DNA of 64,000 bases, taken from the NCBI RefSeq assembly GCF_024362485.1, contig NZ_CP101456.1, positions 3,410,001-3,474,000 of the forward strand, read 5' to 3'. This stretch comes from Natronobeatus ordinarius (GTDB lineage: Archaea; Halobacteriota; Halobacteria; Halobacteriales; Natrialbaceae). The position numbers and the translations under genes are program-made. The notes below the pieces were generated by a model. The model was not told the origin of the DNA. It saw only the letters and a program-made list of their open reading frames with translations, and did no database searches. Numbering within the stretch: position 1 is the first letter of the stretch; each line of letters begins with the position of its first letter. Positions 45,916 to 49,320 of the stretch are shown piece after piece.

Positions 45916-46335
45916 ATGGAATTCCAACTACGCGAGCACACGGCCGACGTCGCCGTCGCCGCAACGGGCGAGCACCTCGAGGAGGCGTTCGCCGCCACCG
46001 CGGACGGACTCGCGGCGGCGTGCTGTGAGAACGTCCCCGACGAGGGAGTGCGGTTCGACCTCTCGGTGACGGCCGAGAGCGACGAGGCCCTGCTGTTCGA
46101 CTACCTCGACGAACTGATCTACTTGCGGGACGTCCGCGACGAACTCCCCGTCGACAACCGCGTCGAAACGATCGAGCGCCCCGACGGCGACGGCGAGTGG
46201 TCGCTCGAGGCCAGCGCCCGCGGCGTCCCTCTCACGGAACTCGACGCCCGCGAGGTGAAAGCGGTCACCTACTCCGAGATGCGACTCGAGGAGGGGCCGG
46301 AAGGGTGGGAGGCGTACGTCGTCCTCGACGTGTAA
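45916..46335 (+). CDS. Archease
   Basis: 139 residues from ATG 45916. Starts 'EFQLREHTADVAVAATGEHL' with the metal-binding Asp of archease, and contains 'LLFDYLDELIYLRDV' and 'EVKAVTYSEM'. Archease activates the RNA ligase RtcB, whose gene follows 97 bases downstream, a common pairing. Confidence 0.95.
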   Translation: MEFQLREHTADVAVAATGEHLEEAFAATADGLAAACCENVPDEGVRFDLSVTAESDEALLFDYLDELIYLRDVRDELPVDNRVETIERPDGDGEWSLEASARGVPLTELDAREVKAVTYSEMRLEEGPEGWEAYVVLDV

Positions 46336-46431: not shown

Positions 46432-49320
46432 ATGACCACGTTCGACGCAGACGGCATCACGCTCCAGGAAGTCGAGGAGTACATCTGGGAGATTCCACAG
46501 GAAGGCGGGATGCGCGCGCCGGCGCGGGTGTTCGCCAGCGAGCTGTTGCTCGAGGAGATCGCCGGCGACAAGACGCTCGAGCAGCTGAAGAACTCGACGC
46601 ACCTGCCGGGGATCGCCAAGTACGGCATCTGCATGCCCGACGGCCACCAGGGGTACGGCTTCCCGGTTGGCGGCGTCGGGGCGTTCGACGCCGAAACGGG
46701 CTGTATCTCGCCCGGTTCGGTTGGCTACGACATCAACTGCCTCCCGGGCGACACCGACGTCTTGCTCGAGTTCGGACGACGGATCCCGATCGAAGAACTC
46801 CGGAACCGATTCGAGGACGAACGAGCGATCGTCGCCGGTGACGAGTCTGTCGCTTCGCCGATACAGCTGTTCACCGAACGCGAGAACGCGGCCGTCTACG
46901 AAGTCGAAACCGAGACCGGCGATCGAATCAGGGCAACCGCCGATCATCCGTTCCTGACGCCCGACGGGATGGTCGAACTCGAAGCCCTCTCGGAGGGCGA
47001 CGACGTGCTGGTACAGCCGTTCCGCGGCCTCGAAGACGAGGAACCAGACGAGTTCACGGTGGTGTCGAAAGACGACTTCGCCGACGAGAACCCACAGCTC
47101 GTCCGTTCGCTGGAAGATCGTAATCTCCTTCCACTGAAATCGACCGACGAGGCGTTCAATCGACTGCTCAAGCTCGTGGGGTTTCATACCGGAGACGGGG
47201 CGATCGGACACGGTGGACAGACGTGGTTCTACGCCGAACCTGAAGACCTCGAGTCGATCCAGGAAGACATCCGTGCTGTCGGGTTCACCCCGTCGAAAAT
47301 CTACGAACGGGAGCGATCCCACGAGATAGATGGGAACTCGTTCGAGACCACCGAATACAGCGTCCGTTCGAGCTCGAAGGGATTCCAGAAACTCCTGTGT
47401 GAACTCGGCGCACCGGACGGGCGAAAAATCGAGTCCGAGTTTACGACGCCCTGGTACTTCGATCGACTCGCAGACTGGCAAAAAGCGCTGTACGTGTCGG
47501 CGTACTTCGGTGCGGAGATGAGTGCGCCGTCAGCCCAACACGACAAGAACCTTTACTGTCCGAAAGTCTCCCAGAATCGGACGGTCGACGCCGCCGACGC
47601 AGGCGAACAGTTCATGCGGGAAATCGCCGCATTTCTCGAGGACGTCGGCGTCGAGACGAATCGGATCGAGCGGTTCGAGACGGACTCCAGGGGGAAACGA
47701 GAGACGATCAGGCTCCGACTCGGGATAAAGAACGATTCCAAGAATCTGATCCGCTTTTTTTCCACCGTCGGATACCGATACAACCGCCAGAAGCGCACGC
47801 AGTCGATCAAAGCGCTCCAATACTTAAAGACGAAAGAGGCCGTTATCGATCGTCGTTCGGAGATCGCCAGGCAGGCGAAAGCGATGGCTGACGGTGGGAC
47901 GCCAGTCACCGACATCAAGTCCCAGTTCGACGTCAACGAACGATTCATCGAACGAAGCGTCTGGTCGGGACGCAACGGTCGGCCGCGCCCACCGGCCGAC
48001 TTCCCTGGCTTCGAGGAATACTGTGAGACGGTCACGGTGGATGAGAATCTCACGACCCGAACGCGGATCAGCGCCATCGAACGAGCGGGTGAGTGTTCGG
48101 TCTACGACATCGGGGTCACTCACGAGGCGCACAACTTCATCGCCGATGGGTTCGTCGTCTCGAACTGCGGCGTCCGGATGATGCGGACGAACCTCACTTA
48201 CGACGACCTGCAGGGACACGAGGAGGAGCTCGTCAACTCGCTGTTCGCCAACGTGCCGTCGGGGCTCGGCAAGGGCGGCGTCGTCGAGACGGACGTCGAC
48301 GAGGTCGAGGAGATCCTCGAGCGCGGCGTCGAATGGGCGCTCGAGAACGGCCACGCCGTCGAGGAGGACCTGTTGTGCTGTGAGGACGAGGGCCACCGCG
48401 AGGAGGCCGACGCCTCGAAGATCTCCCAGAAGGCCAAAGAACGGGGGAAAGGACAGGTCGGCTCGCTCGGCTCGGGTAACCACTTCCTCGAGGTCCAGCG
48501 CGTCACGGACATCTTCGACGACGAGCGCGGGGCGGCGTTCGGACTCGAGGAAGACCAGATCGTCGTCCTTATTCACTGTGGCTCGCGCGGGCTGGGTCAC
48601 CAGACCTGTAACGACTACCTGCGAAAGATCGAGAAACAGCACCAGGGCCTGCTGAACCAGCTTCCCGACAGGGAGCTCGCCGCGGCACCCGCGGGCTCAC
48701 AGCTCGCCGAGGACTACTACGGCGCGATGAACGCGGCGATCAACTTCGCGTGGGTGAACCGTCAGCTCATCATGCACCGCACGCGGCAGGTGTTCGAGCG
48801 CGTCTTCGACCGCCCCTGGCAGGAGATGGAGATGGAACTGCTCTACGACGTCGCCCACAACATCGCGAAGAAGGAGACCCACGAGGTCGACGGCGAAGCG
48901 GGCGAGTACTTCGTCCACCGGAAGGGGGCGACGCGGGCGTTCCCAGCGGGCCATCCCGAGGTACCCGCCGTCTACCGCGACGTCGGCCAGCCCGTCATCA
49001 TCCCCGGCAGCATGGGGGCGGGCAGCTACGTGCTGGCGGGCGGCGACCGCTCGATGGAGCTCACGTTCGGCTCGACGGCCCACGGCGCCGGGCGCGTGAT
49101 GAGCCGCACGCAAGCGAAGAAAGACTACTGGGGCGAGGACGTCAGGGACGAACTCCGCGATCAGCAACAGATCTTCGTCAAAGCCCAGTCCGGCGCGACC
49201 GTCGCCGAAGAGGCCCCGGGCGTCTACAAGGACGTCGACGAGGTGGTCCGCGTCTCCGACGAACTCGGCATCGGCGACAAGGTCGCGCGTACCTTCCCGG
49301 TCTGTAACATCAAGGGGTGA
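46432..49320 (+). CDS. rtcB: RNA-splicing ligase RtcB with in-frame intein
   Basis: 962 residues; about 486 after intein removal. RtcB joins tRNA halves after intron splicing, using GTP and Mn2+. Before the intein: 'GICMPDGHQGYGFPVGGVG' and 'SVGYDIN'. After it: 'CGVRMMRTN' (the metal-binding Cys restored by splicing), 'HCGSRGLGHQ', 'GSMGAGSYVL' and 'TAHGAGRVMSR', which carries the guanylylated His. Archease lies just upstream. Maturation depends on protein splicing. Confidence 0.97.
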   Translation: MTTFDADGITLQEVEEYIWEIPQEGGMRAPARVFASELLLEEIAGDKTLEQLKNSTHLPGIAKYGICMPDGHQGYGFPVGGVGAFDAETGCISPGSVGYDINCLPGDTDVLLEFGRRIPIEELRNRFEDERAIVAGDESVASPIQLFTERENAAVYEVETETGDRIRATADHPFLTPDGMVELEALSEGDDVLVQPFRGLEDEEPDEFTVVSKDDFADENPQLVRSLEDRNLLPLKSTDEAFNRLLKLVGFHTGDGAIGHGGQTWFYAEPEDLESIQEDIRAVGFTPSKIYERERSHEIDGNSFETTEYSVRSSSKGFQKLLCELGAPDGRKIESEFTTPWYFDRLADWQKALYVSAYFGAEMSAPSAQHDKNLYCPKVSQNRTVDAADAGEQFMREIAAFLEDVGVETNRIERFETDSRGKRETIRLRLGIKNDSKNLIRFFSTVGYRYNRQKRTQSIKALQYLKTKEAVIDRRSEIARQAKAMADGGTPVTDIKSQFDVNERFIERSVWSGRNGRPRPPADFPGFEEYCETVTVDENLTTRTRISAIERAGECSVYDIGVTHEAHNFIADGFVVSNCGVRMMRTNLTYDDLQGHEEELVNSLFANVPSGLGKGGVVETDVDEVEEILERGVEWALENGHAVEEDLLCCEDEGHREEADASKISQKAKERGKGQVGSLGSGNHFLEVQRVTDIFDDERGAAFGLEEDQIVVLIHCGSRGLGHQTCNDYLRKIEKQHQGLLNQLPDRELAAAPAGSQLAEDYYGAMNAAINFAWVNRQLIMHRTRQVFERVFDRPWQEMEMELLYDVAHNIAKKETHEVDGEAGEYFVHRKGATRAFPAGHPEVPAVYRDVGQPVIIPGSMGAGSYVLAGGDRSMELTFGSTAHGAGRVMSRTQAKKDYWGEDVRDELRDQQQIFVKAQSGATVAEEAPGVYKDVDEVVRVSDELGIGDKVARTFPVCNIKG
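46738..48165 (+). mobile_element. LAGLIDADG intein in rtcB
   Basis: 476 residues, from Cys103 ('CLPGDTDVLLE') to Asn ('FVVSN'), followed by the extein Cys. Splicing blocks: 'RIRATADHPFLTPDG' (B block, TxxH) and 'CSVYDIGVTHEAHNF' (F block). The penultimate residue is Ser, where His is most usual. The endonuclease has two LAGLIDADG-like helices ('LLKLVGFHTGDGAI' near 47164 and 'ALYVSAYFGAEM' near 47488). A small helix-turn-helix ('GTPVTDIKSQFDVNERFIE') lies between them and the C-terminal splicing part. Its codon use is less GC-rich than the exteins, as expected of a mobile element. Confidence 0.95.

Follow-up and report, generated by a model that had tools for sequence, protein, structure and literature searches.

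The window analysed here, a stretch of 64,000 nucleotides from the haloarchaeon Natronobeatus ordinarius (contig NZ_CP101456.1, positions 3,410,001 to 3,474,000), contains the gene for the RNA ligase RtcB, whose reading frame carries an in-frame intein at the active-site cysteine of the ligase (Table 1). The PF01139 (RtcB) profile is split around the insert, with profile positions 1-50 aligned before it and 49-426 after it. A first description made from the letters of this DNA (the sequence-only reading) had called an intein with the boundaries listed in Table 1, and these are exact: the frame is open throughout, RtcB flanks the insert on both sides and three intein models exceed their curated cut-offs, namely PF14890 (54.7 bits; cut-off 35.8), TIGR01445 (53.1 bits; 24.5) and TIGR01443 (24.3 bits; 15.6). 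Given the open frame and the model scores, a chance match is untenable as an explanation. We consider the insert to be, very probably, a homing intein of class 1 at Cys98 of RtcB that combines self-splicing with LAGLIDADG homing and a likely helix-turn-helix accessory domain.

Table 1. Features of the rtcB locus in the window (positions are those of the window; residues are numbered from Cys1 of the intein).
Feature	Position	Strand	Remarks
Archease gene	45916..46335	+	PF01951, 112.4 bits; directly upstream of rtcB on the same strand; outside the intein
rtcB precursor open reading frame	46432..49320	+	962 amino acids, open throughout; RNA ligase RtcB with intein; PF01139, 534.7 bits
RtcB N-extein	46432..46737	+	ends ...GYDIN
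Intein	46738..48165	+	476 amino acids, Cys1 to Asn476
Hint splicing domain, N-terminal part	46738..47037	+	Cys1 (TGC, 46738-46740); block B T67-x-x-H70 at 46936-46947; TIGR01445 on residues 1-74
LAGLIDADG-type homing endonuclease	47146..47775 (ends approximate)	+	alignment; fold matches to PI-PfuI, PI-TkoII and I-Tsp061I
Endonuclease motif 1, D153	47194-47196	+	alignment
Endonuclease motif 2 (FGAE), E260	47515-47517	+	alignment
Accessory domain, long helix and likely helix-turn-helix	47779..48036	+	structure predictions; fold matches weak, with DNA-binding proteins frequent among them
Helix-turn-helix helices, residues 390-396 and 401-409	47905-47964	+	predicted
Hint splicing domain, C-terminal part	48037..48165	+	TIGR01443; H465 (block F) 48130-48132; Ser475 48160-48162; Asn476 (AAC) 48163-48165
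RtcB C-extein	48166..49320	+	starts with the active-site Cys, the +1 nucleophile (TGC, 48166-48168)

Class 1 inteins carry Cys or Ser at position 1, a TxxH motif in block B, a C-terminal Asn and Cys, Ser or Thr at position +1. The window intein has Cys1, TxxH, Asn476 and a +1 Cys, residues that identify it as a class 1 intein with a Hint splicing domain, and its insertion between the Asp-Ile-Asn of the N-extein and the active-site Cys places it at the Cys98 site. It was compared with other RtcB inteins in two sets: 89 that could be aligned at full length and 94 with a readable C-terminal end, the latter being 69 loci from named genomes, less 15 exact duplicates, plus 40 haloarchaeal copies. 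Residues C1, H70, D457, H465, S475 and N476 are each kept in all 89 aligned inteins, and at T67 of block B 76 have Thr and the other 13 have Ser.

The sequence-only reading had drawn attention to a serine in place of histidine at the penultimate position. The serine is indeed present (the intein ends GFVVSN/C, running into the CGVR of RtcB), but it is not remarkable, being shared by the relatives (94/94, with all 69 readable named-genome loci ending in SN) and by three PDB DnaE inteins aligned for comparison, which likewise end in ASN. A His-less end that is common at this site was, next to constitutive complete splicing in all conditions, one of the two outcomes that the sequence-only reading had set in advance as speaking against its view, and the SN end in 94/94 rules out the serine as an anomaly. 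The block F histidine, H465, is likely to be the helper of Asn cyclisation. The serine is a trait of the lineage to which the window intein belongs rather than something imposed by the insertion site, because HN is the ending of an unrelated intein that occupies the equivalent site in a divergent RtcB. This other intein, in genome G249 (L081/L079, L058:1-822), interrupts a divergent RtcB at the equivalent cysteine (VGVDIG/C); it is different and shorter, shows HNH-like motifs by eye and has a penultimate His (FVHN/C), and BLASTP against the window intein gives a weak match in block B alone. The active-site Cys codons have therefore been invaded at least twice, in keeping with the idea that codons which the hosts can hardly alter are the preferred targets of homing elements.

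The active-site cysteine of RtcB binds metal. Unspliced RtcB is probably inactive, as the sequence-only reading had reasonably held, because a single RtcB gene was found in the 4.2 Mb genome of the window and the insert parts this cysteine from the preceding Asp-Ile-Asn. That archaeal RtcB inteins at this residue were already known is also correct: Cys98 is the published splice junction in Pyrococcus horikoshii RtcB (PH1602; PMC4150793), for which there are PDB structures (1uc2, 4dwq and others), and the cysteine is described in the literature as an active-site residue. P. horikoshii is a hyperthermophile whereas the host here is a halophile, and the likeness is one of insertion site. A much closer relative is the intein in the same gene of Natrinema thermotolerans (CP031304), which matches end to end with 75.9% identity and is publicly annotated as 'intein-containing tRNA-splicing ligase RtcB'. 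The precursor also aligns over 2-961 of the 961 positions of NCBIfam NF038162 (RtcB_rel_intein), with a score of 1037.5 bits that lies under the cut-off of 1150, so that it is not formally a member. Haloarchaeal RNA polymerase subunit A' inteins are 31-32% identical to it and have the same domain order, FGAE included; they reside in a different host protein, and one of their three complete copies (L046) lacks the helix-turn-helix. Our literature search for RtcB inteins of haloarchaea found no paper, and a wider one on RtcB and inteins gave nine; a survey from 2014 that covers 118 haloarchaeal genomes (PMC4071816) mentions 'rtcB' neither in its main text nor in its intein-allele table.

The endonuclease domain is assigned to the LAGLIDADG type by two motif helices with the acids D153 and E260 and by its fold, which matches that of I-Tsp061I (2dch) with Z = 16.1 over 194 aligned residues at a root-mean-square deviation of 3.4. 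D153 is kept in 85 of the 89 full-length inteins and E260 in all 89, the second count being biased for the named-genome loci, where the search patterns included FGAEM; E260 is present in all 40 haloarchaeal copies, which were found without that pattern. Damaged relatives occur: L160, whose extein branch is very long and whose assembly may be at fault, lacks motif 1, D153 is altered in L174, L182 and L191, and L185 has lost the helix-turn-helix. Such members speak for a reading in which the endonuclease is dead and the intein persists merely because precise loss is rare. The window intein, however, retains both catalytic acids, the complete haloarchaeal copies, 40 in number, measure 465-480 amino acids with no mini-intein among them, and the endonuclease shows low ratios of nonsynonymous to synonymous substitution rates (dN/dS; see below); we regard a dead endonuclease as very unlikely and a functional homing domain as the better account.

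Between the endonuclease and the C-terminal splicing block lies an accessory domain that is likely to be a helix-turn-helix. The AlphaFold2 model of the intein (40-row alignment; mean predicted local distance difference test score, pLDDT, 93.2) has helices at residues 350-385, 390-396 and 401-409, and in the Foldseek ranking of this model the TliVMA intein (7QSS) comes first, PI-PfuI second and PI-TkoII fourth. Modelled alone, the domain retains helix-turn-helix-like helices (pLDDT 90.6), and its weak matches include many DNA-binding proteins, among them resolvases, DeoR, TrpR and IstA. Structure prediction supports what the sequence-only reading had placed here, with the reservation that the fold matches are weak and Pfam gives none. 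That the domain is noteworthy is not borne out, since it is of a known accessory type and is kept in most relatives and in two of the three complete RNA polymerase A' inteins. TliVMA (7QSS) and PI-TkoII (2CW7) resemble the window intein in combining Hint and LAGLIDADG domains with an accessory domain, helix-turn-helix-like in both and probably so in the window intein; they occupy other host proteins and sites, are 13-14% identical to it in the Foldseek alignments and, in PI-TkoII, include an additional domain IV. The accessory domains of both are described as resembling a helix-turn-helix motif, and deletion and grafting of that of TliVMA change the sites cut by the endonuclease (PMC8966425). 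The latter result bears on the idea that the helix-turn-helix is a transcriptional self-regulator of rtcB instead of a homing accessory. Repressors (DeoR, TrpR) do figure among the weak fold matches, but the TliVMA domain, in the same place within the same architecture, alters endonuclease site choice, and we hold self-regulation to be extremely improbable next to an accessory role in homing.

At least 44 residues of the region 376-423 align in 86 of the 89 full-length relatives; the region is absent from L185, is reduced to 26 residues in L180 and 40 in L160, and appears eroded in the partial copy of genome G366. L185 keeps its splicing residues, so splicing probably does without the helix-turn-helix region. 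L185 and L182, close RtcB inteins from Methanosarcinales/Methanomicrobia assemblies, form a natural pair for probing this domain: L185 has lost it in frame with its endonuclease motifs intact, and L182 keeps it with D153 changed to Glu. The alleles of this one site, which range from full through helix-turn-helix-less and endonuclease-damaged to intein-free, offer a ready series on the role of the domain in homing.

RtcB was detected in 390 of 391 sampled haloarchaeal genomes. With the intein as query, 43 of the 391 gave a match, and in 41, the genome of the window included, the match lies in rtcB; the matches in G317 and G345, like second matches in G309 and G381, lie in RNA polymerase subunit A'. 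The same 41 genomes show a split canonical RtcB when compared by eye, and 40 of the 41 copies are complete, that of G366 being cut by a contig end. The genes with the intein lie dispersed among intein-free alleles, which the sequence-only reading had recommended looking for. Among named genomes, where loci were selected on two peptide patterns (FGAEM included, so that FGAEM conservation there is by construction), 71 RtcB intein loci were recovered, from haloarchaea, Nanohaloarchaeota, Thermoproteota, Micrarchaeota, Asgard-type and other archaeal metagenome-assembled genomes (MAGs) and some bacterial MAGs. Two of them (L161, L162) end before the intein C-terminus; all 69 others continue into RtcB with CGVR, CGMR or CGIR, and in 64 the N-terminal junction is present as well. 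What had been flagged as odd is the usual state of an intein that is widespread: the site and the type of insert are known, and the flagged details are normal for the RtcB intein family. Carriage by viruses or phages found no support, with no relatives in viral contigs (one single-protein scan) or in a phage collection; a plasmid collection gave one relative, on a 987-kb Natrinema replicon.

The intein does not simply follow the gene that carries it. Mapped onto an 84-row tree of RtcB exteins, the intein label has to change no fewer than 26 times, and well supported branches force 21 of these changes. The count is no rate, because some of the 44 intein-free rows had been picked for being congeners; the clustering of the label is at chance level (126 of 500 shuffles were as low). 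L142 was left out of the extein tree that includes the named loci. Genes that closely resemble carriers lack the intein (L049 beside L004 is one case), and the 44 intein-free alleles share the same junction residues, with the first and second codon positions of GYDIN/CGV identical in at least 84% of them; this invariance is partly by construction, because the search pattern required DI and two of the 46 alleles (L094 and L118, both GYDVN/CGVR) were dropped. Five exteins of Halorubrum (genus g30, whose genome copies are identical to named Halorubrum loci) form one clade and their inteins do not, intein monophyly being rejected by the approximately unbiased test (p-AU 1.6e-55) for a genus that is an outside grouping, yet was chosen after the tree had been seen. 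Pairwise identities diverge in both directions: extein 89% and intein 52% for G291/G171, 76% and 82% for G334/G103, and 87% and 61% for the window and L144. The history appears to be a mixture of vertical descent and transfer. For the 14 closest pairs, which share genomes, dN/dS is 0.060-0.129 in the endonuclease, 0.032-0.177 in the helix-turn-helix region, 0.042-0.186 in Hint and 0.042-0.144 in the extein, values that indicate purifying selection on the endonuclease and the helix-turn-helix region similar to that on the splicing domain. Low dN/dS together with tree conflict is what would be predicted for a homing intein whose activity is maintained by transfer.

Beside these trees stands an observation on range. 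The RtcB inteins of L157 and L149, from MAGs named Aenigmatarchaeota and Nanohalarchaeota, nest among haloarchaeal inteins, and the extein of L157, which has a long branch, is placed with other archaea. This hints that haloarchaea and small DPANN archaea have exchanged inteins, with binning errors or long-branch effects as possible causes.

The sequence-only reading had also suggested that splicing might be conditional on salt or redox state, the intein acting as a switch that keeps RtcB inactive until splicing is allowed and so makes tRNA splicing conditional. There are precedents for its parts: in the halophilic split intein HutMCM2, an increase of NaCl to 3.5 M set off trans-splicing (PMC7098700), and the +1 Cys is the RtcB active-site Cys, which is oxidation-prone in metazoan RTCB (PMC12263435, PMC10653391). 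Such a switch is at odds with an intein present in just 41 of 391 genomes and missing from genes as similar to carriers as L049. Across the 89 full-length inteins, moreover, only Cys1 is invariant among the five intein cysteines (C274 is Cys in 52 and C429 in 33), so that no conserved disulfide partner or redox Cys pair is seen, and cysteine conservation gives no sequence support for salt or redox control. A salt requirement is expected of a halophilic protein from folding alone. Haloarchaeal cells always hold high salt, and salt dependence in vitro would therefore be no proof by itself of regulation in them. We judge the switch highly improbable. Its more elaborate form, in which the intein gates tRNA splicing such that oxidation or low salt stalls splicing and stored precursor is freed as active ligase on recovery, draws on the +1 nucleophile being the needed active-site Cys that is oxidation-prone in related ligases, and is more improbable still.

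The best reading is an active homing intein with constitutive splicing. We infer that the Hint domain would fold within the translated precursor, that Cys1 would attack the preceding peptide bond and the chain would move to the +1 Cys, and that Asn476 would then cyclise with the aid of H465, substituting for the penultimate His, to release ligated, active RtcB. In intein-free rtcB alleles the LAGLIDADG endonuclease would cut the conserved codons of the active site, with the helix-turn-helix domain contributing DNA contacts, and repair of the cut allele would copy the intein in. Several points weigh against this account. The helix-turn-helix matches are weak, with a best Foldseek E-value of 0.91; the top two rows in VIA are RNA polymerase (Z = 4.6 and 4.4), the first row for a DNA-binding domain being DeoR (Z = 4.3 over 48 residues), and the accessory domain has no match in Pfam. 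PF14528 (LAGLIDADG_3) scores 13.2 bits, under its cut-off of 22.5, so the LAGLIDADG assignment rests on fold and motifs. Intein and extein identities correlate (Spearman 0.47 over 780 non-independent pairs), which argues for descent that is vertical in part, the dN/dS pairs are not independent of one another in their genomes, and a slow or conditional intein could give the same sequence picture.

As regards the surroundings, the archease gene (Table 1) has parallels in archease-rtcB operons already on record (PMC3973293); the window holds no tRNA genes, and an Rfam scan of it gave no family at threshold. Elsewhere in the same genome there are four further matches to intein N-termini, of which two fall in MCM and the others in the DNA polymerase II large subunit (DP2) and in a HATPase_c protein that resembles topoisomerase VI subunit B, at loci L193, L196 and L197 (543 kb, 597 kb and 2370 kb). 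RtcB itself varies among the sampled genomes. G016, G041, G051, G055 and others (L057-L078; 16 genomes inspected closely) have a divergent RtcB only, with no canonical copy, in open frames of 486-536 amino acids with a weak two-piece PF01139 score, and in G322 (L055, L068, L080) RtcB is divided into three parts that occupy separate open frames, a pattern like that of a frameshifted gene.
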